Shown: positions 20,857 to 54,813 of the stretch, piece by piece
Layout of the letters: the number at the start of each line of letters is the position of its first letter
Numbering within the stretch: position 1 is the first letter of the stretch
NCBI GenBank assembly: GCA_024998595.1
Contig: JACOEK010000001.1
Location: 310,001-374,000 of the forward strand
Length of the DNA: 64,000 bases
Reading direction: 5' to 3'
Source: Nitrospira sp.
GTDB taxonomy: Bacteria > Nitrospirota > Nitrospiria > Nitrospirales > Nitrospiraceae
The notes under the pieces: model-generated
The model's input: the letters and a program-made list of their open reading frames with translations, nothing else
The model's database searches: none
Told to the model about the DNA's origin: nothing
Translations under genes and position numbers: made by a program

Positions 20857-20872
20857 TTATCGGATCGGATAC
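20857..20872 (-). promoter_or_regulatory. Enhancer-type palindrome upstream of the kinase promoter
   Basis: TTATC-GGATCG-GATAC differs from the GTATC-N6-GATAC pattern by one base. It sits 126 bp upstream of the -24 element, a normal distance for an enhancer-binding-protein site. No paired second copy is visible here. Confidence 0.55.
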
Positions 20873-30650: not shown

Positions 30651-30666
30651 AGCAACAGCCGTGCCA
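30651..30666 (-). promoter_or_regulatory. Sigma-54 promoter (-24/-12) of the 41-residue membrane-protein gene
   Basis: Minus-strand TGGCACGGCTGTTGCT is a full match to TGGCACG-N4-TTGCW with exact GG-N10-GC spacing. Transcription should start about 70 nt before the ATG at 30569. Confidence 0.85.
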
Positions 30667-30780: not shown

Positions 30781-30817
30781 GTATCGGATCCGATGCAAGG
30801 CGTATCCGATCTGATAC
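30781..30817 (-). promoter_or_regulatory. Paired enhancer-type palindromes
   Basis: GTATC-GGATCC-GATGC (30781-30796) and GTATC-CGATCT-GATAC (30802-30817) are 21 bp apart, 114 bp upstream of the -24 element. The same pair recurs upstream of the 50-residue membrane-protein gene at a matching distance. Confidence 0.75.
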
Positions 30818-30986: not shown

Positions 30987-31727
30987 TTAAGGTGAGGACT
31001 CTCCCGGCAGGTGCACACCGGCTTGATGCAACAAATGGTCGAGCATTCGCCGTAATCTCTCCTTGTCTGACTCCTGTTCAATTAGTTCCACCAGACAGGC
31101 AATGGCGTCGTACCAGAGGCCTGACTCGGCATAGCGATAAATCCCTTCCGTATCACAAGGAGACGAAGGACAGGGCATACCGAGGGCGCATGCCTCATCC
31201 AGAGAGATTCGTTCGATCATCCCACCCGCCACCACGTCGAGTGATGGTCTATGAGGGTCCATCACAACCGTCACATACCATCGGTAGGACTCTTCCACCC
31301 GGAACTCCACTCCATACTCACGCGGTCTCAGGCAGTGAATCCCATGACGAACAGGTGCGGGAAGTGATTGTTCAAGGATGGGACGGATCCCCCGGGAATC
31401 GACCACCGTTAGAACCATTGGTCGAGATGCGTGCAAAGATTGGTACCAGCATAGGGTGGGATCATTCTTCACCGTAAAGGCAATGTGATCGGGCACCAAG
31501 GCAATGAGGACGGGGGTGCCAGTCTCCACTCCCCGGCCCTGCCCGCCAATGCGCGCCCGTGGCGCGTCCGCCTTTCTTGGTTTGTACTCAGGCAGGCGGC
31601 TTTCAGGAGTAGCAACAGGCTCGGCCGCAATGCTGCTCAAAAAGCTGAATGCCACCCGAGACCGATGCCCGCCGGTCAGCCACGTTATAGTGAGGAACAG
31701 AAGGAAACAAATTCGCAAGTATGGCAT
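30987..31727 (-). CDS. DUF928 protein (second copy)
   Basis: The 246-residue protein has an N-terminal hydrophobic export signal (ICFLLFLTITWLTGG). The DUF928 pattern follows: LPEYKPRKADAPRARIGGQG near residues 45-64, LIALVPDHIAFTVKNDPTLCWY, a middle IPILEQSL-type region and YRWYVTVVMDP. DUF928 proteins are found mainly in cyanobacteria and Nitrospira-like bacteria beside CHAT and two-partner-secretion genes; their function is unknown. It is a diverged paralogue of the preceding gene, 3 bp away, and is the last gene of the island operon. Confidence 0.82.
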   Translation of the reverse strand: MPYLRICFLLFLTITWLTGGHRSRVAFSFLSSIAAEPVATPESRLPEYKPRKADAPRARIGGQGRGVETGTPVLIALVPDHIAFTVKNDPTLCWYQSLHASRPMVLTVVDSRGIRPILEQSLPAPVRHGIHCLRPREYGVEFRVEESYRWYVTVVMDPHRPSLDVVAGGMIERISLDEACALGMPCPSSPCDTEGIYRYAESGLWYDAIACLVELIEQESDKERLRRMLDHLLHQAGVHLPGESSP

Positions 31728-31730
31728 TCG

Positions 31731-32498
31731 TCACCGTTGTCGGGCATGGGATTGCGCAAGGTCCCAGTCCGCCACATCATGGAGGCCCACTTGCCTGAGC
31801 AAGGCGGCACGCTGTTTCCGGAGCCCTGTGTCGGACGGGTTGGATTCAATGAGATCGCATAGACACGCCATGGCATCGTACCAAAATCCTTTGACGGCAC
31901 TGGCTATGACCGCTTCGCGGTTACACATGGTCATAGCCCCTAATATCGAGCATTCACTGAACTCGCAGCGCTCGATCATTCCGCCAGTCACGAGATCCTG
32001 GGAGGGGGAGTCCGTGGCTTTGATCACGGAGATATACCATCGGTATTGCACATTCGCCTGAAGTGCCAAGCCGAGATCCTCGAGCTTGACGGCGTGAACT
32101 CCTGCCTTGTGCGGGGGCGTGAGGGACCGTTCGACCAAGGCGTGGATGGATCGCTCATCGATCAGGGTGAACGTGATCGGCAACGAAGTGTGCTTGGATA
32201 AAAACCAGTTCAGCGCCGGATGTTGTCTGACGGTGATGCCGACATGGTCTGGAACGAGCGCCGCGACAGCGGGATCTTCACCCTCGCCGCCCCGCAAGCT
32301 TCCACCTAGGCGGGCACGTGGTGTCATCTTCTGTGGGGCATGGTACTGCGGGAGGTCCGGTTCCTCTTCCGGCAAGGCTGTGCTCGTGCCCACCAGGGAG
32401 ACGGTGAGCAGGACCGTGGCTCCTAGTAACTGAACCATGAAATGATAGAGCCACGTAGCCAAGCAATTACCCTTCTTCCCCGAGTCGGTCACAGCCAA
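31731..32498 (-). CDS. DUF928 protein (first copy)
   Basis: The 255-residue protein has an export signal around residues 20-42 (MVQLLGATVLLTVSLVG). The DUF928 core PQYHAPQKMTPRARLGGSLRGG, VAALVPDHVGITVRQHPALNWFL and YRWYISVIKATD follows. A C-terminal helical part has ILGAMTMCNREAVIASAVKGFWYDAMACLCDL. It overlaps the CHAT gene by 10 bp and precedes the second DUF928 gene by 3 bp, so all three are co-translated. Predicted periplasmic. A start at 32438 is possible. Function unknown. Confidence 0.82.
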   Translation of the reverse strand: MAVTDSGKKGNCLATWLYHFMVQLLGATVLLTVSLVGTSTALPEEEPDLPQYHAPQKMTPRARLGGSLRGGEGEDPAVAALVPDHVGITVRQHPALNWFLSKHTSLPITFTLIDERSIHALVERSLTPPHKAGVHAVKLEDLGLALQANVQYRWYISVIKATDSPSQDLVTGGMIERCEFSECSILGAMTMCNREAVIASAVKGFWYDAMACLCDLIESNPSDTGLRKQRAALLRQVGLHDVADWDLAQSHARQR

Positions 32499-34831
32499 TT
32501 ATTTAACAACAGAAACGCTGCCCAATAGGCCGGATGTTCATACACGCGATCTGAGAGTAGTTTCATCTGTGCTTGCTGCAAGGCTCGCGCCTTCGAGATC
32601 GAGGGGTCATGCAATTGACGGTAAAATTCTGCGACCAGTTCGGAGGAGGCGTCGTCATTGATGAACCACAGGGTAGCCAACGCACTTCTGGCTCCTGCCT
32701 TCACCGCGATCCCAGCCAATCCAAGCGCCGCCCGGTCATCACCGCTTCCAGTCTGACAGGCGCTTAAGGTCAGTAATTCAAGTGGCTCCCGGCGAAAGCG
32801 AAACAGGCCCACCAGCTGTTCCAACTGAGTCATGCTCAGCCGAGCGTCGAACGTCAGGAGGAACGACTGATTTACGTCGGTGGCGAACTGCCCATGGGTG
32901 GCGATGTGGAGGATGCTGTAGCGTCCTCCCCTCAATTCTTCTTCCAGCCGCGGCGTCAAAAAGTCCTGGTCGACGAGGCGCTCTCCCTTAAACAACGCAT
33001 GAATCGAATTGAGTTCGTCGGCCACATGCGGCAAAGGAGGAAACCCCTGCACCGCTTTAGTCAGCCCGCTGGACAAAAGGTGAACGTTGGCACGATCGAT
33101 TGGTTGAGGGTCGGTCAGATCAAGACCGGGAGACATGGCCACGGCAAAGTGTTCGATCAGAAACTGCTTTCCATCATGCAGGGCCGACATCGGAATGGTG
33201 CGGAGCGATCCGTCGGGGACAAAGACCAATGTGTCCACGTTGAGTCGGCGAAGGTCAGGTTCGAGTGGCCGAATCAGCCAGTCATACAATTGCTGGGCAT
33301 GAGGCAGGTATTCGCGGGTTGTGCGCTTTTCGAGCATATGTCGAAAACGACGCACTTCCTCCGTCAGAGTCGTCGCCGTCACCGGAATGGAATGTCGTGT
33401 CAGGCCGTCAGGAAGGCTGACGAGAAGCTCGGTGCGATCGCTGAAGATTATCGGATAGACGATGGCGGTGGAAGGAGAGAGCACATCCAGCTTCGTGATG
33501 CGGGCTTGCATCTGGTCGACACAATCGTCTCGAAAGTAGTCCCGAAGTTCCGCGGCCTTAAACGCTTCAATCACATCCCGGGCCGCTCGCAAGTAAGGTT
33601 CCGCCTCTCGGTTATCGCGCATCAGGGCCGCTCGCCTCAGCAGTAGGTCCGCCAATTCAAAATATAACGCCCGAACGGATGGCTGATGCTGATCCGGGAT
33701 TGTCTGTAAGGCGAATGTCACTTCGCTTCGAATGGGGTGCAGGGTGAGGGCGGCTTCTTGATAAGCCGACAGGGCGTCGTCGAGTTGCCCCAGCTGATTC
33801 AGCACACGTCCACTTTGCCACTGCCAACGGTACAGCGACTCCGGCGCGCGCGCTGACTGGGCTGTGAAGACCGCTCGTCGGGTCAACTGAAGCGCTTCGT
33901 CGAATCGGCGTTCGATTTCATAGAGATGCCCGAGGTGGCCAAAGGCATAGGACGCAAGACGCGCATCCGCGGGGTTTTGTGCCATCCCGGCCGCTTCTTG
34001 CAGCAACGCAGCAGACCGCGTTAAGGCAGAAGCGTAGGATGGTGAATGAGCCAACGCCAGATCGCGATATCCCAAAGCCAGGTTCACGAGTCCTTCTGTC
34101 TTCTCGTAAGAAGGTCCGCCTTCAGCAAGCCGCACTACCGCTTCGTCCAAAGCCGGAGCGACCGCATCGAATTGTGCGAGCTGAATCGCCATCCGGGCTT
34201 CGTTGACGCGGGCACGGATGAAAAGGGAGGTGAGCTCCTCCTGTTTCGAACTCACCGCGCACTTGCGGAATGCCGTCAAAGCATCTTCCAGGCGTCCCTG
34301 TAAGGCCATGACAATGCCCAGATCGTTCTGGAGGGCCAGACTCAGAGCTCTCAACGGCTGGGCCTCCGCGATCTCGAACGCTTGGGTGAGATAGTCTGCT
34401 GCAACTTCGTATTGATGGTTCGCGACATAGGTTTTACCTAACTCGGAGAGGGTAAGGGCCAGCAATTGAGGATCGTGCAGCTTGCGTGCGAGGTGCAGGG
34501 CCAATTCTTCCTGCAGAAACGCTTGATTTACATGCCCTAAGGTGCGAGCGGCAAAAGCGGCCTGTGTGAGTGCGTGAATATGACCCTTCGTCTCGCCGGT
34601 CTGGTCGTACAAGTCTGCGGCTGCCTTCCATGCAAGAAGGGCTTCCTCAAATGCTCCTTGATGGGCAGCCGCTCGTCCTCGTTGCATGAGTTCATCGGCC
34701 GAAGGCGGATTGTCTGCAGCCAGAGAGACGGTGCAGGAGAGCAGGGCAAACAGGCAGAGACTGAGCGTCCTTGATAGGTATTGGCGGAAATGTGAGGCTG
34801 ACGGGAACAGCGTGGGTCCATAATGGTCCAT
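32489..34831 (-). CDS. Exported TPR-CHAT caspase-like protein
   Basis: The 780-residue protein has a Sec signal (LSLCLFALLSCTVSLAADN). About 400 residues of TPR helices follow (ADELMQRGRAAAHQGAFEEALLAWK, then many repeats), then a CHAT domain. The caspase-type dyad is intact: His near 646 (ILHIATHGQF) and Cys near 692 (LTLSACQTGSGD), with the usual AGARSALATLWFINDDAS and FYRQLHD blocks. CHAT domains are cysteine peptidases often activated through TPR-bound partners. Its start directly abuts the TpsB stop. Export, with the exoprotein and transporter genes upstream, suggests that it processes or releases the surface exoproteins. That substrate assignment is inference. Confidence 0.9.
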   Translation of the reverse strand: MDHYGPTLFPSASHFRQYLSRTLSLCLFALLSCTVSLAADNPPSADELMQRGRAAAHQGAFEEALLAWKAAADLYDQTGETKGHIHALTQAAFAARTLGHVNQAFLQEELALHLARKLHDPQLLALTLSELGKTYVANHQYEVAADYLTQAFEIAEAQPLRALSLALQNDLGIVMALQGRLEDALTAFRKCAVSSKQEELTSLFIRARVNEARMAIQLAQFDAVAPALDEAVVRLAEGGPSYEKTEGLVNLALGYRDLALAHSPSYASALTRSAALLQEAAGMAQNPADARLASYAFGHLGHLYEIERRFDEALQLTRRAVFTAQSARAPESLYRWQWQSGRVLNQLGQLDDALSAYQEAALTLHPIRSEVTFALQTIPDQHQPSVRALYFELADLLLRRAALMRDNREAEPYLRAARDVIEAFKAAELRDYFRDDCVDQMQARITKLDVLSPSTAIVYPIIFSDRTELLVSLPDGLTRHSIPVTATTLTEEVRRFRHMLEKRTTREYLPHAQQLYDWLIRPLEPDLRRLNVDTLVFVPDGSLRTIPMSALHDGKQFLIEHFAVAMSPGLDLTDPQPIDRANVHLLSSGLTKAVQGFPPLPHVADELNSIHALFKGERLVDQDFLTPRLEEELRGGRYSILHIATHGQFATDVNQSFLLTFDARLSMTQLEQLVGLFRFRREPLELLTLSACQTGSGDDRAALGLAGIAVKAGARSALATLWFINDDASSELVAEFYRQLHDPSISKARALQQAQMKLLSDRVYEHPAYWAAFLLLNNWL

Positions 34832-36580
34832 TCACAACACCTGCACGACGAGTTGAAGGTGAATCCCATGATCCTGCATATTGCCTTCTCCACCGCGGAC
34901 ATGATTGAGCTGTTGGCCCCAGTACACCTCAAACCGCGCACGCTCCTGAGGAAGAATCATCCAGCGCAATCCCGCCCCGACGCTCGCCAAGGTACGGAGA
35001 TCGGGGGTATCGCCCTTGGCGTTCCAGGCGTGACCGAAATCGACGAATGGAGCGAACTGTACTCTGTCCTCGCCAGAAGGAAACCGCAGTAGCGGAAATC
35101 GCGACTCGAATGAAGCCAGCACCGCGTCATCTCGCACCAACGTATTCTCTCGATACCCGCGCACGCTGAAGCGTCCCCCGAGGGGCATTTGCTCGAGAGG
35201 GAACAGCCGGTCGCTCGCGACCTGTGCCGCGACGCGTCCCAACAATTGAACGCCCCACCAGTCATCCAACCGTTTCACGATCTGGGCCTGACCTAACCAG
35301 GAAACAAATTGCCCGTCGGGGAGCGGTCCGCTGTTGATCGTGGCGCCGAGCACATCCAGCCCGACGCTCACCCGGGACAGGGCAGCAAACACCAAGGACG
35401 GGGAACGATGCGTATATTCCTGGCTAAAGCGGAGTGCGCTTACGGTGGCCACGCCCGTCGTGGAAGACCCAGGAATGAACAAAGAGGGCAGTCCAGGCGC
35501 ATCAAACGCCGAGGTGGTCTTCAGATATAGATGTTCGCCCGTTAGCGTGACGGCAAACTCGTCGGTTACCGTACGATAGACCGGCTGGCGCAGGGCTATG
35601 CCGATCACTTGGGAATCCACATTCAAATCCAGGGTGCGAAAAGGATTCTCGACGACGAGAAAAGCATTGCGCCGATAGTAGGCCGTGAAAGTGGTTTCAT
35701 ACGAATTGAGCGGCAGACTGTAAGAGGTATCAATGATGGGGTTCACCCCGCGTGACCGTCCATAGGTAAACATAAATTGGTCGCCGTGACCGGTCACGTT
35801 TTGATGTGCCACTGTCGCCAGGCCACGTTCGGCACCGACCGTCGGCGTTTGATAGTTATTGAACTCCAGCCAGGCCCGAAACGGATTGGCGTCTTTGACG
35901 CGCACGTTCAAGACGCTTTCCCCGCGAATGTCGCCAGGCTTTAATTCCGCATTGACCCGTTCGATGCGAGGATCTTGCTGGAGGAGTTGTATCCGCTCCT
36001 GTAGGGGATGGATGCTGAGGGGCGTGGATAATCCGCGTGCCACGCGATCTCGCAGGTATGAGCTTCGAAACCACTCATTGCCCTCGACGTCAATTCGGGC
36101 GAGTGTGCCCTCCACTATCTGGATCACGATCGTACCGAATGTCACGTCCTGGTCAGGAATCACCGCTCCAGATGTGAGATAGCCTTTGTTCACATACAAA
36201 AGGGTGAGCGCGAGACGTACCTTCTCGAGATCTTCAGTCGTGAGGTCCCGATTGCGATAAGGAGCCGTCACCTCAGCGAGTTCAGTATCAGAAAAGACGG
36301 TGCTGCCGGTCACGTGAATGTCGTGCACGAATACTCGAAACGCGCCTAACCTGTTGTCCGGAAGCGTGAGCGGTGTGGTCGGCACGATCGGAAGAATCGA
36401 GCTGGGTGGCTCGGACGGTGGAGCGTTGAGGTCTTCTTTGAGTAGAGCAGGCGGTTTCGCCGATTTCCCGGTCGGGTCAAAAATCGGGGGGAGTGGGGGC
36501 GCCACTTGAGCGAAGGCTTGGATTTCCATGAGGCAGAGGCTCAATAACAGCCCTTGGCACAAAGATCGGTTGGTAAACAT
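34832..36580 (-). CDS. TpsB/ShlB-type two-partner-secretion outer-membrane transporter
   Basis: The 582-residue protein has a signal peptide (LLLSLCLMEIQAFAQ) and a Pro-rich linker. Two POTRA domains follow (FVHDIHVTGSTVFSDTEL, then GTLARIDVEGNEWFRSSYLRDR with RIQLLQQDPRIERVNAEL), then a 16-strand barrel. The conserved L6 loop motif is seen as FSVRGYRENTLVRDDA. Omp85-superfamily TpsB pores move an exoprotein with an N-terminal TPS domain across the outer membrane. The exoprotein genes lie directly upstream. The ATG at 36580 is chosen because the longer frame before it has no protein character. Confidence 0.9.
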   Translation of the reverse strand: MFTNRSLCQGLLLSLCLMEIQAFAQVAPPLPPIFDPTGKSAKPPALLKEDLNAPPSEPPSSILPIVPTTPLTLPDNRLGAFRVFVHDIHVTGSTVFSDTELAEVTAPYRNRDLTTEDLEKVRLALTLLYVNKGYLTSGAVIPDQDVTFGTIVIQIVEGTLARIDVEGNEWFRSSYLRDRVARGLSTPLSIHPLQERIQLLQQDPRIERVNAELKPGDIRGESVLNVRVKDANPFRAWLEFNNYQTPTVGAERGLATVAHQNVTGHGDQFMFTYGRSRGVNPIIDTSYSLPLNSYETTFTAYYRRNAFLVVENPFRTLDLNVDSQVIGIALRQPVYRTVTDEFAVTLTGEHLYLKTTSAFDAPGLPSLFIPGSSTTGVATVSALRFSQEYTHRSPSLVFAALSRVSVGLDVLGATINSGPLPDGQFVSWLGQAQIVKRLDDWWGVQLLGRVAAQVASDRLFPLEQMPLGGRFSVRGYRENTLVRDDAVLASFESRFPLLRFPSGEDRVQFAPFVDFGHAWNAKGDTPDLRTLASVGAGLRWMILPQERARFEVYWGQQLNHVRGGEGNMQDHGIHLQLVVQVL

Positions 36581-36629
36581 CCGCAAGGCCAAGTGTCGTC
36601 CCCGTCCGCCGGCGCGCCGGCTTGATCCG

Positions 36630-39600
36630 TTATGAGCGACAGCCTTCTCCCCAGGCGGTGAATCGTGATCCGGACTGAAGCGCCGGATGCCCTTCTCCCA
36701 TCTCCGCCACGGTGTCCTTCTGTTCCCACGTTTCGGCACTGATCCCGGCGACCGGCCGAATGTCCTGATCTTGGGCTGCAGTAGTCATGACGCTCAGCGG
36801 GCTCATCAGCCATCCGCCCGGTTCGACGGGAAGCATATCTCGTCCCGCGACGACGAGGCTGCTGAGTTTGCCCACGGCTTGTGCCGCACAGCGTTGAGTG
36901 AGAAGAGGTGGTGTCGACAGCGGATGTTGCGGCAGCGTGGCCAAGGTGTTGCTGAGGCTCGAGACGGGTGACTGAATATTCACCGAGCCGCTCAACCCGA
37001 ACTGCGAGGAGGCACTCACCACGCTCGTAGGGTCCGCAAGGAATGTCCCGGCAATGATGCTGATGTTTCCTCCCTGGCCTTGGATCGCTTCAGCGCGGAC
37101 TTGGCTGTTTTGTAACGTGACCACGGCAGGATCGAGAATGATGTTCCCGCCGGATGTATTGGCCCCCCCCTTCACCGAAGTACTGAGTTGGCTGTTAACC
37201 AGCCTGATGGAATCCACGGCTTGGATGAGAATGTTGCCACCGCTGGCACGTTGTGCTTCCGTAGATAACACTCCATTTTGACTCAGAAATTGAGAGCCGG
37301 CGTTGATGGAAATGCTCCCCGCATTTCCAAGGCCCGCGCTGCTTGCCGTGATCGATGACCCCCCATTGAGGATGACCGATCCAGTGGCAGCGACCGTAAC
37401 AGACCCTCCCGGGCCTGATCCGGAGCTAGTAGTACTGATCGTTGTTCCCTGATCGATCCTCAGATTTCTTGTAATGAAGACGGCGTTTCCGGCAGGCGCA
37501 GCGCCAGCCGTATCGGTACGAATATTAGGGCTATTGGTCAGACTGATTGTATCCGCGGTCATAGTAATGGATGCTGGGAGAGTCGCCTCTGTACCACCTC
37601 TCACAGCGGTGCTGACTTCAGTATTGTTGAGTGCAATCAGCTTGGCAGGGTCCGTAGTTCCAGGGGCAAGACCTGATATTGTGACAGTTCCTCCCCGTCC
37701 GGAGGAACTGTCCTCCCCTACGCCGACGCTTGCGAGGAGTGATCTGGGCTGGCCGTCATTGATCAGCGTTCCGTCAGCGTTTACATTCGCCCGCAAGGTA
37801 TTGACATTGAGGGCGATATTCCCTGCCGGCGCGGGACTGGTCGTGAAGGCAAATATCTGTGTTCTTCCGCTCATGGTCATGGTATCTGCCGTAATCGTAA
37901 TCGTCCCAGGAGGGAGAGCCGCTGTCCCGCCTTCCACTGCTGTGCTCATCTGCGCATTGTAAAGAGCAACCAGTTTTGCGGCATCCGTGGGTTCGGGGCC
38001 GGGGCCCGAAATAGTCACAGTCCCCGGTGGACCGGCTGTGCTGTCCAAGCGTCCACTGGGGCTGTTGAGAAAGACCCGATTGGCGCTGGTTATTGGCGTG
38101 CCATCCGGACGCACGTTCACCCGTAGAGTGTTGACGTTGAGAGCAATGTCCCCGGCAGGCGCCGGAGCAGCAGCTCCTGAGGTCGTCACGAGGATGGTCA
38201 TATTACTGAGTGAAACGGTGTCTGCTGTGATGATGATCGGAGCCGGTATTGGTGACGATCCGCCCACCGCAAAGGTATCAATCTCCGTATTGCTGAGCAT
38301 GACTAGCTTGGCAAGGTCGGCGGACGCCGAGCCGGGGCCTGAGATCGTGACGATGCCAGGCGGTCCGGCCGTGCTGGCAGGGTGTTCGGTAGGGCTACCG
38401 ATTAACACGGGCCTACCGTCCACGAACGATCCATCCGGATTCCAATTCGACCATAACTGATTGACGCTCAATGACACTGGACCCGCGGGCGCCGCCCCGT
38501 TGGTCGTGGTATAGATTTCTACTTGATCGCTCAGCACCAGCGAGTTCGCAGCGATGGTGATTCCTCCCGGTAGAGAGGCCGATGTCCCACCGAACGATCG
38601 CGTGTGTAGAATGGTATCGGTGAGACTGATCTTGTTCGCTACGCTTCCCGAACCATTGACCCCCTGGATCGTAATATGGCCGGCGTTACCCGCCCCGGTA
38701 TCAATGCTTCTGCTCGTACTCTCAATCAGTACCCCGGTCTCGGAAATGATCGGGTTGGTGATCAAACTCTCCGGAGACACGTGCAGGCGAGTCGGACCTC
38801 CTTTGGTGGCCAGGTTTTCTACATTGAAAGTAATATTGCCCGCAGAGGCGGGCCCGAATGTATCCGTCGTGATATAGACCCCATTATTTAAGGTGACTTG
38901 ATCAGCTGTGATGGTAATAGTCCCTGGGGTACTGTTTGCATCGCCCCCGTTGACAGTTGCACTGAGCGCGGCGTTATCCATGATCACGTTCCCGGCGGCA
39001 CTTCCCGTTCCCCCGATTCCCTGAATCGTAAGGGCACCCGCGTGTCCACCATTGTCTGCATTGGCCAGGATGGCCGCTCCATTTTGCAGCCGGATGTTCG
39101 ATGCGGAAAGGGTAACGGCTCCGCTATTTTCGGAAGCCGGGGGACCAGCTCCCGGACCGCTCATCGTTGCGACAATTGTCGAGTTATTCAAGACAAACTG
39201 GCCGCTTCGAATGGCCACTCGACCGTTTCCAGTGCCGCTGACATCTAGGGTAGATTTTTGCGCAATCTGGATGGCTCCGAGTGATCCAAATGACGGACCA
39301 TTCATATTAGAGGCCTGCTCCAACGTTCCAGCCAGGATTTCTCCTGGCGAGCTGAGGCTGGCCAGGTTGATCCGTCCCGCGGGAGCCGAAAGACGCGCGG
39401 ACTGTGAGGAACCATTCTCCAGCAAGCCGGAACGAATATCGATATTCCCGCCCACCAACGAAAGCCCCTGGCCCTCTGCTACCCCGAGATGTCCCCCCTG
39501 CACGGTGATCGCTCCTGGGTTTGATCCCAGAAAACCAAATGCTGCCACCGGCGCGCTGGAGATGGCTATATCCTGTGTCCCTGGAGTAGCGGTAAATCGT

Positions 39601-40094
39601 GCCCCGTCTCCTAAGCGGAGGTAATCCGCCGTCGTGAAATTCACCGAGCCCCCGACATTCAAGGATGCATTGGGGCCGAAGACGATCCCGGCCGGATTCA
39701 TCACAAACAGATTGGCGCCGCCGAAGCCGGTCGTCTGGATCGTGCCGAAGATGTTGGACGGGTTCCCGCCGGTCACACGGCTGAGAATATTGGAGGTGGC
39801 GAGCCCTGAATCGTTGAGGAAATTCGCGACATGATGCGTGGGGACGCCGAACTCACCGAAGCTGTGAAAGAGGTTCGATCCGCCGCCTGGACGAGTGCCG
39901 CCGGTGATATCGAAGGTCGTTCCGCTTTGAGTGACGGTCGTATTCAGTCCCGAGGAAGTGATGGGAGCCGCAGTTTGAGACTGCCCGATGGCCGGCAAGA
40001 ATGGCTGGATCAGCAAGGAGGCGAGCAGCGCAGCCGAAAGCTGGGGGTGGTACCGGTGACGAGCATGTAACAATTTGCTGATGAGAGAAACCAT
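36630..40094 (-). CDS. Filamentous-haemagglutinin-like TPS exoprotein (copy 2)
   Basis: The 1154-residue exoprotein has an N-terminal signal followed by the haemagglutination-activity/TPS domain (NLFHSFGEFGVPTHHVANFL, GGNPSNIFGTIQTTG, ANLFVMNPAGIVFGPNASLN). About six imperfect repeats of roughly 95-110 residues follow, with GTVTISGPGPEPTDAAKL, ITITADTMTMSG and SPAPAGNIALNVNTLRANV as markers; these should form a beta-helix. The C-terminal block NTLATLPQHPL...QRCAAQ...VVAGRDMLPVEPGGWL has the protein's only obvious cysteine. It has one more repeat than copy 1. Probably exported through the TpsB 49 bp downstream as an adhesin or matrix protein. Confidence 0.9.
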   Translation of the reverse strand: MVSLISKLLHARHRYHPQLSAALLASLLIQPFLPAIGQSQTAAPITSSGLNTTVTQSGTTFDITGGTRPGGGSNLFHSFGEFGVPTHHVANFLNDSGLATSNILSRVTGGNPSNIFGTIQTTGFGGANLFVMNPAGIVFGPNASLNVGGSVNFTTADYLRLGDGARFTATPGTQDIAISSAPVAAFGFLGSNPGAITVQGGHLGVAEGQGLSLVGGNIDIRSGLLENGSSQSARLSAPAGRINLASLSSPGEILAGTLEQASNMNGPSFGSLGAIQIAQKSTLDVSGTGNGRVAIRSGQFVLNNSTIVATMSGPGAGPPASENSGAVTLSASNIRLQNGAAILANADNGGHAGALTIQGIGGTGSAAGNVIMDNAALSATVNGGDANSTPGTITITADQVTLNNGVYITTDTFGPASAGNITFNVENLATKGGPTRLHVSPESLITNPIISETGVLIESTSRSIDTGAGNAGHITIQGVNGSGSVANKISLTDTILHTRSFGGTSASLPGGITIAANSLVLSDQVEIYTTTNGAAPAGPVSLSVNQLWSNWNPDGSFVDGRPVLIGSPTEHPASTAGPPGIVTISGPGSASADLAKLVMLSNTEIDTFAVGGSSPIPAPIIITADTVSLSNMTILVTTSGAAAPAPAGDIALNVNTLRVNVRPDGTPITSANRVFLNSPSGRLDSTAGPPGTVTISGPGPEPTDAAKLVALYNAQMSTAVEGGTAALPPGTITITADTMTMSGRTQIFAFTTSPAPAGNIALNVNTLRANVNADGTLINDGQPRSLLASVGVGEDSSSGRGGTVTISGLAPGTTDPAKLIALNNTEVSTAVRGGTEATLPASITMTADTISLTNSPNIRTDTAGAAPAGNAVFITRNLRIDQGTTISTTSSGSGPGGSVTVAATGSVILNGGSSITASSAGLGNAGSISINAGSQFLSQNGVLSTEAQRASGGNILIQAVDSIRLVNSQLSTSVKGGANTSGGNIILDPAVVTLQNSQVRAEAIQGQGGNISIIAGTFLADPTSVVSASSQFGLSGSVNIQSPVSSLSNTLATLPQHPLSTPPLLTQRCAAQAVGKLSSLVVAGRDMLPVEPGGWLMSPLSVMTTAAQDQDIRPVAGISAETWEQKDTVAEMGEGHPALQSGSRFTAWGEGCRS
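39622..39780 (-). repeat. 159-bp near-identical segment shared with the paralogous exoprotein gene (copy A)
   Basis: This part of the TPS-domain coding region differs from 42827-42985 at only four positions by eye, whereas flanking DNA has diverged strongly. It covers the NFTTADYLRL to GGNPSNIF region. Recent gene conversion is the simplest explanation. Confidence 0.8.
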
Positions 40095-40125
40095 TCGGAT
40101 TACCCATGTGTCGCTGTGTTAGCAG

Positions 40126-43100
40126 TCAGGACCCGCAACCGGTTGCCAGACCGGTGCCATCTCGTTGTGACGATCCGTTGAGTTGTTCCGACCATCGTTG
40201 CACAGGCGCTTCAATTGAGCGCGTAGTCTCAAAGACCTCGTCGGCTGCGAGGTGAACAGGCGAGGTCGGCTCGGCACCCGCCATCATGGCGGGTGAACTC
40301 ATGAGCCATCCACCAGGTTCTAGTGGCAAAGTATCTCGCCCCGCGATCACGAGGCTGCTCATGTGACCCTCCGCTTGGGCGGCACAGCGTTGGCGCAACA
40401 GGTTCTGTGCTTGCAGAGGGCGTTGGGGTAGGATGGCCAAGGTGTTGCTGAGGCTTGAGACAGGTGACTGAATGTTCACCGAGCCGCTTAACCCGAACTG
40501 CGAGGAGGCACTCACGATGCTGGTCTGGTCGGCAAGAAAGGTCCCCGCAATGATATTGATGTTGCCGCCTGCACCCTGCACTGCTTGGGCCGTGATCTGG
40601 CTATTTTGGAGAGTGACGACCGTAGGATCGAGCGTAATGTTCCCGCCCGCTGTATTGGGGCCTCCATTGACCGAAGTGCTGAGTCGACTGTTGATGAGCC
40701 GAATTGAATCGGTAGCTTGAATAACAATATTGCCTCCGCTCGCCTGTATAGCTTCGGTCGTGATCGAGGCATTCTGTGCGACAAACTGCGAGCCGGCTTG
40801 AATGACAATATTGCCCGCATTGCCCGACCCTGTACTGCTCGCAGTAACGGAGGAATTGTCGCCGAGTGTAACTGATCTCGCTGCCTCAATCGCAATCTTA
40901 CCGCCCGGTCCAGTTCCGGAAGTCCGGCTGCTAATCTTTGTACCATGGTCAGCGATAAGTTGGTTCACACTGAACGCAAGATTTCCGGCTGGGGCTCCGC
41001 CACTCGTATCGGTCTTGATATTCTTGCTGTTCGTTAGACTGAGTGTATCTGCTGTCAACGTGATACTGGCCGGGGTAGTAGCCGCTGTTCCGGTCGTTAT
41101 GACCGTGCTGATCTCGGTATTGTTAATGGCAATCAGTTTGGCGGGTACCGTCGACCCTGGACCAAGACCGGAGATTGTGACGGTTCCTGCTCTTCCTCCA
41201 CTGCTGTCTGGACTTATGCTGAGGCTGCTGATAAACGATTGCGGCTGGCCATTGATAAAGCTGCCGTCCGAAGTCACGTTGGCGAGCAGGTTATTGGTAT
41301 GGAGGGTTATATTTCCAGCGGGTGCCGCGCTGGATGTGAATGCAAAAATCCCTGTAGCACCGGTGAGCGTGATCGTATCTGCCGTCATTGTGATGAGGCC
41401 CGGAGCCAAGGCTGCTGTCCCGCCCTCCACGGCAGTGCTGAGAGAAACATTATTGAGAGCGATTAGATTCGCGTGGGTCGTTGGCTGCGAGCCAATACCC
41501 GAGATAGTGATGGTTCCTGCCGGCCCGCCTGTCGTGCCAAACCCAGATCCTGGGCTATTGATGTATACCCGATGGGCGTCTGCGATGGGAGTGCCATCCG
41601 GGTTAACATTGACCCGCAATGAGTTGACTTGGAGCGCGATGTTACCCGCGGGCGCGGCGCCAAGCGAGGTCGTAAACAGCGTGGCAGCACCCCCTTCGTC
41701 ATTCGGATAAACTTCGTTGGTCAGCAACAGCGAGTCAGCCGTAATAGTAATCGCCGACGGGGAAGTCATGGCTGACCCGCCAAAGATGTTCGTGTTAAGA
41801 GAAGTATCCTTGAGAGTGACATTCTTTGCTGAGGTACCAGGGCCGCCGGCGCCTTGAATGGTGATGCTGCCTGCAGGGCCAGCCCCTGTGTCCACGCTCC
41901 TGCTAGAACTTGTGATCACATTTCCATTCACCGTGTCATCGTCGATCGGCGGATTGAGCAGAACACGGCCCGAGCCTGCGTTGCTGGTCAGCGTGTCTAC
42001 GTTAAATGCGATATTGCCAGCCGGTGCGGCCCCATAGGTATCAGATCTAATCGAGGTCCCATTGGCCAGTGTCAACGTATCCGCCGTGATCGTGATGGCT
42101 CCCGGTATACTGCTTGGGCTGCCACCGCTGGCGATTGCAGTGACGGTAGCATTGTTCATACTAATGCTCGCGGCTGCGCTGCCGTTCCCGTCCACGCCTT
42201 GGATCGTGATCGTCCCTGCGCTTCCAGCATTTGCCGCATTTGCCTGAATTAAGCTCCCATTTTCCAGGCGGACGGAAGAGGCAGAGATGATGACCGTTCC
42301 GCCAATTGTCGCAGTCGATGGACCGGCCGGAGGGCTGGCGTTATTGGCAGAGAGTGCCGAATCATTCATAACAAAACTGCCTCCACGAATGGCAATGGTG
42401 CCTAGGCCGTTCCCGCTAACATCAATGATGGATTTTTGTGAAATTTCAATTGCACCCAGTGCGCCAACGGGTTGCCCATTGAAAATTGGCGCCTGGGTCA
42501 AATCTCCCGTCAAGATCTCGGCCGGGGAGGCCACGCTTGCCAGCTTGATCTGGCCGCTGGGCGCCGAAAGCTTAGCTCCAGTAACCATGATCCCATTGGG
42601 TACGGCAGAAGGATCGCCGGTGTCTGGATTCGTGTAATTGAATCCCTGGTTTCCCCCAACTAGTGATAGAGACTGGCCGGGTTGAACAGATAACATCCCG
42701 CCTTGCACGGTAATCGCTGCCGGGTTTGATCCTAGAAAGCCAAATGCCGCCACCGGCGCGCTGGAGATGGCCGCATCCTGCAGCCCAGGCAAGGCGGTGA
42801 ACTTGCCGCCGTCCGCCAATCGCAGATAATCCGCCGTCGTGAAATTCACCGAGCCTCCGACATTCAAGGATGCATTGGGGCCGAAGACGATCCCGGCCGG
42901 ATTCATCACGAACAGATTGGCGCCGCCGAAGCCGGTCGTCTGGATCGTGCCGAAGATGTTGGACGGGTTCCCGCCGGTTACGCGGCCTAAAATGTTTGAA
43001 GTTGCCAAACCCGAATCATTGAGAAAGTTGGCGACGTGATTCGTGGGCACGCCGAATTCGCTGAAACTATGGAACAGATTCGCGCCATTGCTCGGGCGTG

Positions 43101-43290
43101 CGCCACCGGTGATATCGAAGGTGGTTCCGTTTCTGGTGACGGTCGTATTCAAGCCCGATGAGGTGATCGGCGAGGAAGTCTGGGCCGGGCATTGAGCGGG
43201 CGCGCAGAGTTGGGCCAACACACAGGAGAGTAATGCGGCTTTGAGGTATAAGTGGTCCGTAGGCCCGGCGCGTATTCTACTCCTGACCAT
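40126..43290 (-). CDS. Filamentous-haemagglutinin-like TPS exoprotein (copy 1)
   Basis: The 1054-residue paralogue of the next gene starts MVRSRIRAGPTDHLYL with a hydrophobic export segment. The TPS domain follows (NLFHSFSEFGVPTNHVANFL, VMNPAGIVFGPNASLN), then about five beta-helix repeats (GTITIQGVDGNGSAAASISM, ITITADTLTLANG, GAAPAGNIAFNVDTL). The C-terminal block NTLAILPQRPL...LRQRCAAQAEGHMSSLV has a lone Cys. The ATG at 43290 aligns with copy 2's start and has an AAAGGG ribosome site. The frame is open further upstream, but that part does not align. It is the first large gene of the island operon; copy 2 follows after 31 bp. Confidence 0.9.
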   Translation of the reverse strand: MVRSRIRAGPTDHLYLKAALLSCVLAQLCAPAQCPAQTSSPITSSGLNTTVTRNGTTFDITGGARPSNGANLFHSFSEFGVPTNHVANFLNDSGLATSNILGRVTGGNPSNIFGTIQTTGFGGANLFVMNPAGIVFGPNASLNVGGSVNFTTADYLRLADGGKFTALPGLQDAAISSAPVAAFGFLGSNPAAITVQGGMLSVQPGQSLSLVGGNQGFNYTNPDTGDPSAVPNGIMVTGAKLSAPSGQIKLASVASPAEILTGDLTQAPIFNGQPVGALGAIEISQKSIIDVSGNGLGTIAIRGGSFVMNDSALSANNASPPAGPSTATIGGTVIISASSVRLENGSLIQANAANAGSAGTITIQGVDGNGSAAASISMNNATVTAIASGGSPSSIPGAITITADTLTLANGTSIRSDTYGAAPAGNIAFNVDTLTSNAGSGRVLLNPPIDDDTVNGNVITSSSRSVDTGAGPAGSITIQGAGGPGTSAKNVTLKDTSLNTNIFGGSAMTSPSAITITADSLLLTNEVYPNDEGGAATLFTTSLGAAPAGNIALQVNSLRVNVNPDGTPIADAHRVYINSPGSGFGTTGGPAGTITISGIGSQPTTHANLIALNNVSLSTAVEGGTAALAPGLITMTADTITLTGATGIFAFTSSAAPAGNITLHTNNLLANVTSDGSFINGQPQSFISSLSISPDSSGGRAGTVTISGLGPGSTVPAKLIAINNTEISTVITTGTAATTPASITLTADTLSLTNSKNIKTDTSGGAPAGNLAFSVNQLIADHGTKISSRTSGTGPGGKIAIEAARSVTLGDNSSVTASSTGSGNAGNIVIQAGSQFVAQNASITTEAIQASGGNIVIQATDSIRLINSRLSTSVNGGPNTAGGNITLDPTVVTLQNSQITAQAVQGAGGNINIIAGTFLADQTSIVSASSQFGLSGSVNIQSPVSSLSNTLAILPQRPLQAQNLLRQRCAAQAEGHMSSLVIAGRDTLPLEPGGWLMSSPAMMAGAEPTSPVHLAADEVFETTRSIEAPVQRWSEQLNGSSQRDGTGLATGCGS
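42827..42985 (-). repeat. 159-bp near-identical segment shared with the paralogous exoprotein gene (copy B)
   Basis: Partner of 39622-39780 with about four differences over 159 bp. It lies at the equivalent place in the TPS domain of copy 1. Confidence 0.8.
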
Positions 43291-43536
43291 AGAAGCCCTT
43301 TGGTTACTACACCGAGGTGCCGCAGTCAGAATCCTCAACCGGTTGTCGGCTTAGTACAGGTCCGTCGGGACACCCGGCTAGGGTGATTCAGTCATGGCCG
43401 CAAGTACCTTTCACGAGACTCTCGCCCCTCGAAGGAGACGGTCAGTATACTCGTTCTCACCATCGAATCCTGGTCTTCTACGGGGGCGGCGCAGATTGAG
43501 CGTCGTGACGCCAGTAGCCGAGTGGACCTCACGTCT

Positions 43537-43689
43537 CTAGACCGTGCGCCGTGGCTCGGCCGTGCCGGGGTTGTCGGTTGCTGGTGAATTGCTCTCCTTC
43601 AACGTTCCTGGGGTTGCATTCATCCAGACGCGACCGGCTGCTGCGAGAAGGATCATTACACCTAATAGCAGAAAGATGAGTGCAACCAT
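43537..43689 (-). CDS. 50-residue single-pass membrane protein
   Basis: The product is one strong N-terminal helix (MVALIFLLLGVMILLAAAGR) and a polar, Pro/Thr-rich tail ending PGTAEPRRTV. The ATG at 43689 has an AGGAGG ribosome site at 6-nt spacing. A sigma-54 -24/-12 element sits at 43763-43778 and paired enhancer palindromes at 43896-43933. It is upstream of, and on the same strand as, the TPS exoprotein operon, with a 246-bp gap. The design mirrors the 41-residue gene at 30444-30569. Function unknown; a role in island regulation or secretion is only a guess. Confidence 0.65.
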   Translation of the reverse strand: MVALIFLLLGVMILLAAAGRVWMNATPGTLKESNSPATDNPGTAEPRRTV

Positions 43690-43762
43690 GTTGGCCTCCT
43701 GGGGCGACGTCATCCCGTCATGGAGCCTCCTCCGAGGAACCTGCTGCCAGGCCTATATGGTG

Positions 43763-43778
43763 CGCAAAGGCTGTGCCA
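43763..43778 (-). promoter_or_regulatory. Sigma-54 promoter (-24/-12) upstream of the TPS/CHAT island
   Basis: Minus-strand TGGCACAGCCTTTGCG has GG-N10-GC spacing, a TGGCAC -24 and a TTGC -12. Transcription should start about 62 nt before the 50-residue gene and could continue into the exoprotein operon. Confidence 0.8.
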
Positions 43779-43895
43779 TCGAGGAGTATCCTCGGCGAAA
43801 AAATTGTGATGGCGAGATGTGTAGAAATTCTAATGACATCCCATCGCATCACCGATGCCTCGGTTGGGCCTGTCCAGGTACGTATGATCCAAGGT

Positions 43896-43933
43896 GTATC
43901 GGATTGGATTCTGTGCCGTATCTGATCCGATAC
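43896..43933 (-). promoter_or_regulatory. Paired enhancer-type palindromes
   Basis: GTATC-GGATTG-GATTC (43896-43911) and GTATC-TGATCC-GATAC (43918-43933) are 22 bp apart and 117 bp upstream of the -24 element. The layout is nearly the same as at 30781-30817. Confidence 0.75.
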
Positions 43934-44050
43934 GAAGATGTCTCTCACAAAAGTGGATGTCGAGCGAGCAATCGCCGTGAATCGGCGATGCTCGGAGAAG
44001 TTTGGCGAAGGGCGAGGTGTAGGATTTACTGCGATGACTCAGTGAAAAGA

Positions 44051-44081
44051 GCCGCGTCTTCGTTGGGGACGAAGACGCGGC
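44051..44081 (-). terminator. Strong stem-loop, probable terminator for the FadL-like operon
   Basis: GCCGCGTCTTCGT (44051-44063) and its exact complement ACGAAGACGCGGC (44069-44081) flank a 5-nt loop. Read on the minus strand it is followed by CTCTTTTC, a short T-rich run. It lies about 260 bp beyond the end of the FadL-like gene and separates that operon from the island promoter. Confidence 0.55.
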
Positions 44082-51304: not shown

Positions 51305-52711
51305 CTAGTCCTTCCCTCTCATATCGAAATTGAAGACAGGGGCGTCGTTTCCGAAGCGCTTCTTTCGCAGCTCTTCCATCAATTCAATGGTCACGAGGGC
51401 AATGCCGTTTTCACGGGCGTGGCGTTCCACACCCTTCTTGACCATGGCGCGGAGAAAATAGGGAATCCGGCTGAGTCGAAGTTCAGAGGCTTCGTCCCAT
51501 GCAACTTCGCTCTCCTCCGGCGTGTTGAAGGCGACTTTGATCTTCTCGCCGCCCTTGGGCGTGTAGAGGCACCATTGGTCCTCGTCCAGCCAGTCGCCAT
51601 GATCCACGTAGGGACGAGCCCGACAGCCACCGCAGATGTCGGTGTATTCGCAGTCACCGCATTTGCCTTTGAGTTGAGGGTACCGGAACGAATTGAACAC
51701 ATCCGACCGTTCCCACAAATCAGCAAAACTCGTCTCGCGAACATTGCCGGCCGATAGCGGCATATAGGGGCAGGGCGTAAGTTCGCCGTTCGGGGTGACA
51801 CGCGCGTAATTGGTTCCGGCGAGGCACCCTCCGCCCATGTAGCCCGTCGCCTTGGTGAGTGGCGAATTGGGATCTTTTTCGTAAGCCAACCGTTTGAAGT
51901 GCGGAGCGCAGCGCGCGCGCACCAGCATGTCTTTGTATTGGTCCTGGCAATCTACCAGATAACCTAACACTTCCTCATACTGTTGGGGCGTGATGTCAGT
52001 GAGCTCTTCGCCACGCCCGGTGCACACCATGAAGAAGACATTCAGAACCCGGGCGCCCAGAGTATGAGCCCATTCCACCACGGCGGGCAGCTCTTGATAG
52101 TTCATGGGCTGGGCGCTGAAATGTACTTGGAACTGCAGGCCGTTACGTTTGCAGGCTTCAATACCGGCCAGCGCGCTGGCAAATGCGCCCGGCACTCCGC
52201 GGAAGTGATCGTGCTTGTCAGGATTGAGCGAATCAATGCTGATCCCCACGCCCATCACACCGATTTCGACCAGCGTTTTGGCCATACGGTCGTTGATCAA
52301 CATGCCGTTGGTGCCGAACACGACGATGAATCCTAGTTTCACCGCGTGCCGGGCGATGTCCAAAATATCAGGGCGCACGAGCGGTTCTCCGCCGGTGATG
52401 ACCAGCAGACACCCTTTATTCACTTCGGCGATCTGATCGATGAGGCGGTAGCATTCCTCAGTGCTAAGCTCATCCGACCCGCCGCCGGCTTTTGTGGTGG
52501 CGTCGAGATAACAATGATCGCATTTGAGGTTGCAACGCTTGGTGAGATTCAGGGCGACGAGATAGGGCTTGAAGTCATCGACCGTCCGGCCATCGTTCGG
52601 CGCTGCGGCCGGAGAGGTCGGCGAGATGAACTTCGAGATCTGCTGCTGAAGGGACTCCAGCTTGTCTCCGAGAAACGGGAAATTGAGCACCGGCAATGAT
52701 TTTCCCATCAC
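51305..52711 (-). CDS. Radical SAM/SPASM protein (NirJ/AhbC-like) with C-terminal PCP_red domain
   Basis: The 468-residue protein has the radical-SAM cluster motif C60-x3-C64-x2-C67 (TKRCNLKCDHCYLDA), then GGEPLVRPD and GISIDSL. A SPASM region supplies auxiliary cysteines (GGGCLAGTNY, LTPCPY, KGKCGDCEYTDICGGCRARPY). This matches the NirJ/AhbC family that decarboxylates or modifies siroheme-derived tetrapyrroles. The last 60 residues form a PCP_red-like domain (ELRLSRIPYFLRAMVKKGVE, then ALVTIELMEEL), also found three times in the co-translated upstream protein. The ATG overlaps that gene's stop by four bases. A tetrapyrrole or haem-related role is likely, but the substrate is unknown. Confidence 0.85.
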   Translation of the reverse strand: MMGKSLPVLNFPFLGDKLESLQQQISKFISPTSPAAAPNDGRTVDDFKPYLVALNLTKRCNLKCDHCYLDATTKAGGGSDELSTEECYRLIDQIAEVNKGCLLVITGGEPLVRPDILDIARHAVKLGFIVVFGTNGMLINDRMAKTLVEIGVMGVGISIDSLNPDKHDHFRGVPGAFASALAGIEACKRNGLQFQVHFSAQPMNYQELPAVVEWAHTLGARVLNVFFMVCTGRGEELTDITPQQYEEVLGYLVDCQDQYKDMLVRARCAPHFKRLAYEKDPNSPLTKATGYMGGGCLAGTNYARVTPNGELTPCPYMPLSAGNVRETSFADLWERSDVFNSFRYPQLKGKCGDCEYTDICGGCRARPYVDHGDWLDEDQWCLYTPKGGEKIKVAFNTPEESEVAWDEASELRLSRIPYFLRAMVKKGVERHARENGIALVTIELMEELRKKRFGNDAPVFNFDMRGKD

Positions 52712-54813
52712 CGGTTCGCCCCGGTCTTGGAGCCCGTCAGATTGGCAATCATGTCCTTTAAGTTACCCGTCTTCATGGCATCGGCCATGTAGCCCTTGGC
52801 TTGCTCAATCCCTTCAGTCGCCACTTCCAGGGTGATGACCGTTGTGCCGATCTTGTCGGCATGTTTCTCGATCAAGGCCTTGGTGCATTCCCGCATGAAA
52901 CCCTCGGGAGCCCGATCTAAACGGCCCTGTGCATCCGGGGTCCAGGTGTAAGGTGACGATGGTTCTTGTGGGGCCTGAGCTTGTTCTGTCCCATTTATGG
53001 CCGCCGCCGCGGTTTCGTTACTAGTTGCCGTAGCCAGGTCGGTCGAAGGCTGGGCTGCGGTTCCTGTCCCCTTATTGGCAAAGATCGGGGTGTAGTCCTC
53101 CGAGGCCGCTTCTTGAATCATGGGGCCGGCATATTCGAACGTGATCGTCGTCATGCCGAGTTTGCGAGCGCTCTTTTCGATCTTGGCTTTGGCCCGGCGG
53201 CGCTGGAACCCGGCTGGTACCGCGCGAATCGCTTCCTTCGCGTCTTTCGTCCACTGCATCGGAACGTCGTCATAGGCGACGTCGGTCTCAAGGCCGCCTT
53301 CGGCTTTGGCCGCCGCTTCGAAGATCGTCTTGTCGACTTGTTTGAATCGATCGCCTTCGGCGCTACACACGGGGCATTTCACGGGGGTATCGCCCTTGCC
53401 GATATATCCGCAACCGTCACAGACAAAATAGTTTTGGCTCATGCGGTCCAGGTAAGCCTGTGTTCCAGGGCTATGAGCCGGCTTCTCTTCGACGACCTGA
53501 GTCATCATCCCGCTCAGAGTGGAGCCCATCAGGTCCTGTGCGACTGAATCGTCGGCTTGCATCTTGTCGCGATCGATACCGGCGGCATCCAGATTGCCTC
53601 CGAGTGCTCGCATGGCATCCATCGCACCCTTGGGAAGGATATGTCCGACAGCGGAATCCACGACCGTATTGCTGATGATCGTGTGTCCCTTCTCAATGGC
53701 GTAGCGGTGAATGGCGGTCTTGGCCACGCCGCGGGCAAACACCGGGATGCGTTCCATCCGGCGCAAGGCTTCTTCCGTCCAAGCAATGGTGTATTCCGCC
53801 TGCGTATCGATCGGCGGAACATATTTGCGGTTCGAGACCAGGATATTGCATGCAGCGGATCGGAGCAGGTTTTCCGTGTTGCTGCCGATGTCCATGTCTT
53901 CGTCGCTGTGGACGCCGATTCGGCCCACGATGAGGAGCCAGGGATTCTCTTTCCGCACGTATTGAATGATTTTTTCGAAGGCCTTGCCGTCCAGTAGGGT
54001 CGTTTTGACATCGGTCTGTTCGGCCTGGGCAATTTCGCGGGAAATATCGAGGTGCGATTGGTAGATCTTCGCTAAGCCGCTGTCGATGACTTCCTCATGC
54101 AATTTTTCCTGCTCTTTGAAGCGGAACACTTTTCCGGCTTCTTCGTTGAGGACACCGGAAATGCTGTGAAACGCCGCATAGTGGAAGTAGGGATCGAAGG
54201 CTGAAATCGCTTCCACCGGCACATTGAAGGCTTTGCCGAGCGCCAAGCCGGTCATGAGGCCGCCGAAGGAATAGGGACTTCCGTCCACGGCCACGACGAT
54301 TTTACCGCTGCCCACCGGAGTCGGCTGCTTGATGATCAACATGTCGGAATTGCGAACACGTCGCAGGACTCGCTCGGTGTTGCTGCCGATTACGCTGTCC
54401 TTGACGGCCCCGACTCCCAAGGCCCCCATGATCACGAGGTCGTAGGCGTTGGTATTGATGTCCTCCGCCAGCACTTTCCAATTGCGCCCTTCCAACGAGC
54501 GACGTTCCACCGGCAGATTGGCCTCATTACATTTCTTGTCGACGTAGTCGAGGTATGAGTCCGTGATGATCTGAAGTCCGCGCGTGATGAGCGAGTCATG
54601 GATTTGGCGCTGCCGGTCCAGTTCTTTCTCGTCGTGATATTCTTCCGGAAGGCCTGCTTCCATCTGCTTAAATCGCTTATCGTGCATCTTCGCCGCGTAG
54701 ACATGGCTACCCACGATCTTTGAGCCATAGGTTTTCGCCAGCTCAACTCCGACATCGACGGCTGTATTGGAATGGTCGGAATTATCGACCGGGATATAGA
54801 TCGTCTTGTACAT
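52708..54813 (-). CDS. Tandem universal-stress protein fused to three PCP_red domains and a rubredoxin-like domain
   Basis: The 701-residue protein has two Usp domains with ATP-binding motifs (MGALGVGAVKDSVIGSNTE near 129-147; VGRIGVHSDEDMDIGSNTE near 296-314). A PCP_red domain at about 343-392 (WTEEALRRMERIPVFARGVAK) follows. A rubredoxin-like iron site is formed by C465-x2-C468 and C480-x2-C483. Two more PCP_red domains lie at about 518-566 and 622-672. PCP_red is otherwise known from the protochlorophyllide reductase B subunit. The ATG has an AGGAGG site. It heads an operon with a radical-SAM protein that also bears PCP_red, suggesting joint redox work on a tetrapyrrole. Confidence 0.88.
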   Translation of the reverse strand: MYKTIYIPVDNSDHSNTAVDVGVELAKTYGSKIVGSHVYAAKMHDKRFKQMEAGLPEEYHDEKELDRQRQIHDSLITRGLQIITDSYLDYVDKKCNEANLPVERRSLEGRNWKVLAEDINTNAYDLVIMGALGVGAVKDSVIGSNTERVLRRVRNSDMLIIKQPTPVGSGKIVVAVDGSPYSFGGLMTGLALGKAFNVPVEAISAFDPYFHYAAFHSISGVLNEEAGKVFRFKEQEKLHEEVIDSGLAKIYQSHLDISREIAQAEQTDVKTTLLDGKAFEKIIQYVRKENPWLLIVGRIGVHSDEDMDIGSNTENLLRSAACNILVSNRKYVPPIDTQAEYTIAWTEEALRRMERIPVFARGVAKTAIHRYAIEKGHTIISNTVVDSAVGHILPKGAMDAMRALGGNLDAAGIDRDKMQADDSVAQDLMGSTLSGMMTQVVEEKPAHSPGTQAYLDRMSQNYFVCDGCGYIGKGDTPVKCPVCSAEGDRFKQVDKTIFEAAAKAEGGLETDVAYDDVPMQWTKDAKEAIRAVPAGFQRRRAKAKIEKSARKLGMTTITFEYAGPMIQEAASEDYTPIFANKGTGTAAQPSTDLATATSNETAAAAINGTEQAQAPQEPSSPYTWTPDAQGRLDRAPEGFMRECTKALIEKHADKIGTTVITLEVATEGIEQAKGYMADAMKTGNLKDMIANLTGSKTGANR

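Follow-up and report, generated by a model that had tools for sequence, protein, structure and literature searches.

The closest described counterpart of the locus analysed here is the CdrA/CdrB-LapG-LapD system of Pseudomonas aeruginosa, in which the periplasmic cysteine protease LapG cuts the periplasmic tail of the two-partner secretion (TPS) adhesin CdrA under the control of the transmembrane receptor LapD, and in which a cysteine hook is believed to keep the CdrA C-terminus inside the TpsB pore (PMC4694147, PMC11898600, PMC7616799, PMC5422565). Likewise, in HMW1/HMW1B and HxuA a C-terminal disulfide anchor locks the TpsA in its TpsB (PMC5422565). A further system of relevance is MtxA of Magnetospirillum, a protein with Big (Ig-like) and TPR regions whose gene is followed by a CHASE2-adenylate cyclase gene, and whose deletion gave no phenotype under standard conditions (PMC4439547).

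We analysed a 64,000-nucleotide stretch of a Nitrospira genome (4.23 Mb, ~58% GC), hereafter the window, in which six genes on the minus strand (30987-43338) encode two TPS exoproteins, a TpsB, a TPR-CHAT protein and two DUF928 proteins:

40126-43338, minus strand: TPS exoprotein 1 (P0006), Pfam TPS (PF05860) E 2e-39, likely start 43290
36630-40094, minus strand: TPS exoprotein 2 (P0005), Pfam TPS (PF05860) E 4e-41
34832-36739, minus strand: TpsB outer-membrane transporter (P0004), Pfam ShlB (PF03865) and POTRA_2 (PF08479), 7e-27 and 4e-21, likely start 36580
32489-34831, minus strand: exported TPR-CHAT cysteine peptidase (P0003), Pfam CHAT (PF12770) E 4e-58, N-terminal TPRs, His646/Cys692
31731-32498, minus strand: DUF928 protein b (P0002), Pfam E 1e-31, signal helix, Ig-like domain and helical (TPR-like) domain
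30987-31727, minus strand: DUF928 protein a (P0001), Pfam E 6e-25

Both exoproteins have an N-terminal TPS domain and, by Pfam, the TpsB has ShlB-type POTRA and barrel regions, which makes this a two-partner secretion (type Vb) locus; the peptidase that it also encodes is an exported member of the caspase family (CHAT, clan CD). The genes for DUF928b and CHAT overlap by 10 bp, those for CHAT and TpsB abut, 3 bp separate the two DUF928 genes, and the exoprotein-TpsB gap is 49 bp if TpsB begins at its likely start. The original prediction had described six contiguous minus-strand genes with tight, abutting or overlapping junctions and an intact CHAT His-Cys dyad, and all of these are present with the expected Pfam families; its end coordinate of 43689 is to be corrected, as it takes in a 50-aa upstream ORF (43540-43689) and exoprotein 1 probably starts at 43290. 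This ORF, located just 5' of the operon, has a hydrophobic start, and weak similarity to it was seen upstream of the exoprotein gene in loci L043 and L045. Elsewhere in the window (51305-54813), PCP_red domains occur both in a radical SAM/SPASM protein and in a Usp protein, and the Usp protein also contains a rubredoxin-like segment.

CHAT peptidases have been studied mainly inside cells. By its domain and its dyad, carried in the motifs HIATHG and SACQTG, P0003 is assigned to the clan CD peptidases and is predicted to be proteolytically active. Of the 59 linked CHATs, 58 retain the His-Cys dyad; the exception is L109 (7637-10300), in which Gln replaces the catalytic His (HLATQG). Using a simple hydropathy rule rather than a trained predictor, we detected an N-terminal hydrophobic export segment in 69/74 CHATs, P0003 among them, consistent with the earlier claim that the CHAT is exported. 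Three of the five exceptions (L038, L047 and L048) look like over-long ORF starts, L119 is near the threshold, and L067 is an unlinked cytoplasmic-type CHAT from the same genome as the window operon. When examined with PADLOC, the CHAT gave a generic TPR match alone and no defence-system family, and an anti-phage defence reading was dropped on this basis and because of the export segment.

Reading up to 20 kb around DUF928, we found the arrangement TPS(1-2)-TpsB-CHAT-DUF928(1-3), with gene order and orientation preserved, at about 20 loci of Nitrospirota, while in Cyanobacteria the genes are rearranged; this is far beyond chance. Cyanobacterial DUF928-anchored loci contained CHASE2 in 69/80, CHAT in 43/80 and TPS in 42/80 cases, and those with full flanks in 36/43, 30/43 and 28/43, respectively, with all five genes together in some (L073, L118, L122, L129). 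The genome scan behind these loci, which are nearly all cyanobacterial, used a cyanobacterial alignment because a mixed DUF928 alignment had no stretch usable for scanning. The expectation that the association extends beyond one strain therefore holds, with the same order across Nitrospirota and the same partners plus CHASE2 in Cyanobacteria. Two relatives (L064 and L065) lack the stretch equivalent to window 31322-44051 between conserved flanks, with a DUF928 3' remnant left behind, and these natural deletions indicate that genomes can do without the locus and can lose it whole. Our literature search found no paper naming both 'CHAT domain' and 'two-partner secretion'.

Both exoproteins end in a two-Cys module:

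40126-40425, minus strand: module of exoprotein 1, with Cys985, GRDTLP (1000-1005) and Cys1068
36630-36932, minus strand: module of exoprotein 2, with Cys1069, GRDMLP (1084-1089) and Cys1152, predicted to be unstructured

This shared module, newly recognised here on CHAT-linked exoproteins, occupies ~85-110 residues at the C-terminus in both phyla and has a GR[GDE]xLP motif between its two cysteines, which are about 80-105 residues apart. Its pattern reads Q-x-C ... S-F-V-V-x-G-R-[GDE]-x-L-P-x-x-P, followed by a variable stretch and a last Cys 1-21 residues before the end. Cys1069 and Cys1152 are the sole cysteines of exoprotein 2, and, counted from the TPS domain to the end (mean 989 aa), 56/70 exoproteins contain exactly two cysteines, which among those listed are the module pair; another 8/70 have four, the extra ones typically forming a close pair. 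The invariant module residues are G, P and C, and much of the module is as conserved as the beta-helix. AlphaFold2 modelling of a 235-residue exoprotein fragment gave a confident beta-helix to ~residue 125 and pLDDT values of 30-46 in the module, which is predicted to be unfolded despite its conservation. A structural search with the model of the module, whose confidence is too low to show cysteine proximity, returned no match. Pfam finds no toxin domain in the exoproteins and their C-terminus is the conserved module, and a CDI/polymorphic toxin reading was dropped for these reasons. In a second operon of the same genome (L066:9974-15809), a TpsB and a TPR-CHAT accompany a 427-aa exoprotein that is little beyond a TPS domain and the module, without DUF928. 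Four CHAT-unlinked TPS proteins of ~1400-1550 aa (L201-L204) share a different C-terminus near VRVKRGVVIQVDVKPQ, and three of the four are without cysteines after the TPS domain.

The module is closely paired with CHAT. Across 148 Nitrospirota genomes we tallied 97 TPS proteins, excluding four weak matches under the Pfam cut-off, and a CHAT gene lay within 15 kb of 47/51 module-bearing compared with 5/46 module-less proteins (Fisher 3.5e-17), counts that are not phylogenetically independent. A genus-level test gave 0.004, or 7e-5 if a one-Cys variant is counted as module. Four module proteins had no CHAT within 15 kb, and 51/51 sit in CHAT-positive genomes. Three of the five module-less proteins near CHAT (two in genome G099, one in G134) come from one-Cys-variant lineages, and we read the remaining two as frame-split genes. 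TPS proteins unlinked to CHAT, mostly from CHAT-bearing genomes, are without the two-Cys module, and many CHATs in the sampled genomes are unrelated to TPS. Among 106 TPS proteins from 59 cyanobacterial genomes, 69 carry the module, 23 are fused to a C-terminal CHAT, 14 have neither, and none truly has both, the single apparent case being read as an opposite-strand CHAT neighbour and scored module-only. The module and DUF928 were found in exactly the same 14/59 cyanobacterial genomes (p 7.5e-14), with up to 45 module matches per genome. The existence of TPS-CHAT fusions places CHAT on the same export route as the exoproteins. TPS and CHAT also lie in one protein in L101:198-5141 and L156:13951-17538, the L101 ORF beginning with a glycosyltransferase-like stretch, perhaps due to an over-long start.

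DUF928, named in a single paper of the literature searched, was present in 29/148 sampled Nitrospirota genomes, and 122/127 of the proteins have an N-terminal hydrophobic segment by the hydropathy rule. In the AlphaFold2 model of DUF928b (pLDDT 82), a signal helix is followed by an Ig-like sandwich at 78-177 and by helices at 180-254. Among solved structures the model best matches the C-terminal domain of MtxA (Z 10.5, rmsd 4.6, 159 aligned, residues 77-255), with the next at Z 6.8. Like MtxA, DUF928 is exported and has an Ig-like domain followed by TPR-like helices, with a CHASE2 gene nearby in relatives; however, sequence-profile searches with DUF928 gave no solved relative and no match to MtxA, making this a predicted link by common fold alone, and neither TPS nor CHAT is mentioned for MtxA (PMC4439547). 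A CHASE2-cyclase gene adjoins CHAT and DUF928 in L034, L036, L038, L039 and L054 (Pfam-checked in one of the five), and the outputs of CHASE2 proteins vary between cyclase, histidine kinase, degenerate CHAT and none recognised. DUF928 is dispensable in places, since L066 and its relatives have TPS-module and CHAT without it. In L062:9553-13614 and L063:6345-10475, DUF928 occurs without TPS; its neighbour there is a protein of 725/726 aa to which Pfam assigns no domain, and in L062 it also adjoins an NlpC/P60-like protein.

Upstream of the operon we identified candidate regulatory sites, all of them, including the hairpin below, called by pattern matching:

43896-43933, no strand: pair of palindromic operator-like elements GTATCNGATCNGATAC, separated by 22 bp, 5' of the operon
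43763-43778, minus strand: sigma-54-like promoter TGGCAC-AGCCT-TTGC, a consensus match alone

Matches to the palindrome within the window exceeded those in every one of 100 shuffles, and the 4.2 Mb genome contains exact copies at just four sites, of which three (20857, 30802 and 43918) fall within the window. In L043 an equivalent of the sigma-54-like site precedes the exoprotein gene, and in the window a strong hairpin (44081-44051) lies between the upstream gene and the operon. The downstream TonB-receptor/PAS/kinase operon is preceded by the same pair, a sigma-54-like site at 30666 and palindromes at 30781-30817, and the palindrome at 20857 is upstream of a 938-aa hybrid kinase. The shared sites suggest a small common regulon.

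LapG cutting CdrA is a direct precedent for the proposed action of CHAT on the module. As in that system, a TPS exoprotein here has two C-terminal cysteines; unlike it, the protease is a CHAT (clan CD), whereas LapG is transglutaminase-like (BTLCP), CHASE2/DUF928 stand in place of LapD, a shared module has GR[GDE]xLP between widely spaced cysteines, and TPS-CHAT fusions exist. Scanning of ten neighbouring window genes revealed no LapD-type c-di-GMP receptor, with CHASE2 receptors instead in relatives. As CHAT is not of the LapG family, the locus may work like LapG/CdrA without being a member of it. The C-terminal cysteine-pair anchor proposed for these exoproteins likewise resembles that of HMW1 and HxuA, although to our knowledge neither HMW1/HMW1B nor HxuA has a dedicated CHAT peptidase.

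We propose, with the balance tipping slightly in favour, that the target of CHAT is a disulfide-hooked periplasmic tail and that its action on this tail sets exoprotein retention or release, with DUF928 and CHASE2 sensing and regulating. The exoprotein would thread through TpsB N-terminus first and fold outside as a beta-helix, while the unfolded module would remain in the periplasm, where its cysteines, probably joined as a disulfide hook, would keep the exoprotein in the TpsB pore. TPR-CHAT would then recognise and cleave the module, such that the exoprotein is kept on the cell, released or matured, and DUF928, as an Ig+TPR periplasmic protein and together with a CHASE2 receptor where encoded, may sense envelope state and regulate the cleavage step. 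The specific CHAT-module pairing strengthens the original prediction of a CHAT action on the exoproteins, a prediction that did not include the C-terminal module, the CHASE2 partner or the TPS-CHAT fusions. What the analysis shows is the gene order, the export segments, the conserved dyad, the module with its statistical tie to CHAT and DUF928, and the predicted DUF928 fold; we infer, by analogy with LapG, the cleavage and its site, the disulfide, periplasmic retention, and regulation with the role of DUF928. Our guess for the cleavage site is between GR and [GDE]xLP. Strict Arg cleavage is doubtful, since R occupies the motif Arg position in 54/61 cases and K, H, S or L in the others, and a cut inside the loop is awkward for release because the disulfide would still hold the exoprotein. 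Moreover, the hook cannot be universal, as variants L038, L055 and L192 keep Cys1 without the tail and Cys2, with a related motif in at least L038 and L055.

PorU is a clan CD cysteine peptidase dedicated to the shared C-terminal signal (CTD) of type IX cargo. It is possible, and we offer this tentatively, that the module is a counterpart of the CTD/PorU pair, namely a general type Vb C-terminal sorting signal read by exported CHATs (free TPR-CHAT or TPS-CHAT) on tens of exoproteins per cyanobacterial cell; however, the secretion system and peptidase family differ, and the CTD is folded whereas the two-Cys tail here is predicted unfolded. CHAT might even be a sortase-like transpeptidase that, having cut the module, links the exoprotein covalently to an acceptor in the envelope, the way PorU does for type IX cargo. 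One dedicated clan CD peptidase with a C-terminal signal on many exoproteins is a sorting-system pattern, as the up to 45 matches per cyanobacterial genome illustrate, but we consider this improbable, with no acceptor or LPS-linking gene linked, a disulfide hook that would retain the exoprotein already, and a PorU resemblance drawn from general knowledge.

Gene linkage by itself would also fit if CHAT were a periplasmic quality-control peptidase that clears stalled or misfolded exoproteins, with the module serving secretion or beta-helix capping rather than as its substrate, and binding of other protein chains is common among TPR domains. This is unlikely given that module-less TPS proteins of the same genomes are without a linked CHAT, that TPS-CHAT fusions export CHAT itself, and that the module is predicted to be unfolded and not a cap. 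CHAT proteins are also well known in conflict systems, and the fusions end in a C-terminal CHAT, where TPS-type toxins bear their toxin domains, which would suit an exoprotein that is a surface sensor or weapon, with CHAT as the effector peptidase that contact releases or activates in conflict between cells or in cell death. We think this very unlikely, as an immunity gene pattern is absent, the exoprotein C-terminus is conserved and not polymorphic, PADLOC gives its generic TPR match alone, and linked CHATs have export segments.

If our preferred reading, in which an exported CHAT acts on the hooked module, is true, CHAT peptidases would gain a role at the bacterial surface. It would also explain the tail that cyanobacterial and Nitrospira surface proteins share in very large numbers, and would assign DUF928, an otherwise uncharacterised domain, to a sensing pathway, together with MtxA on the basis of its fold.
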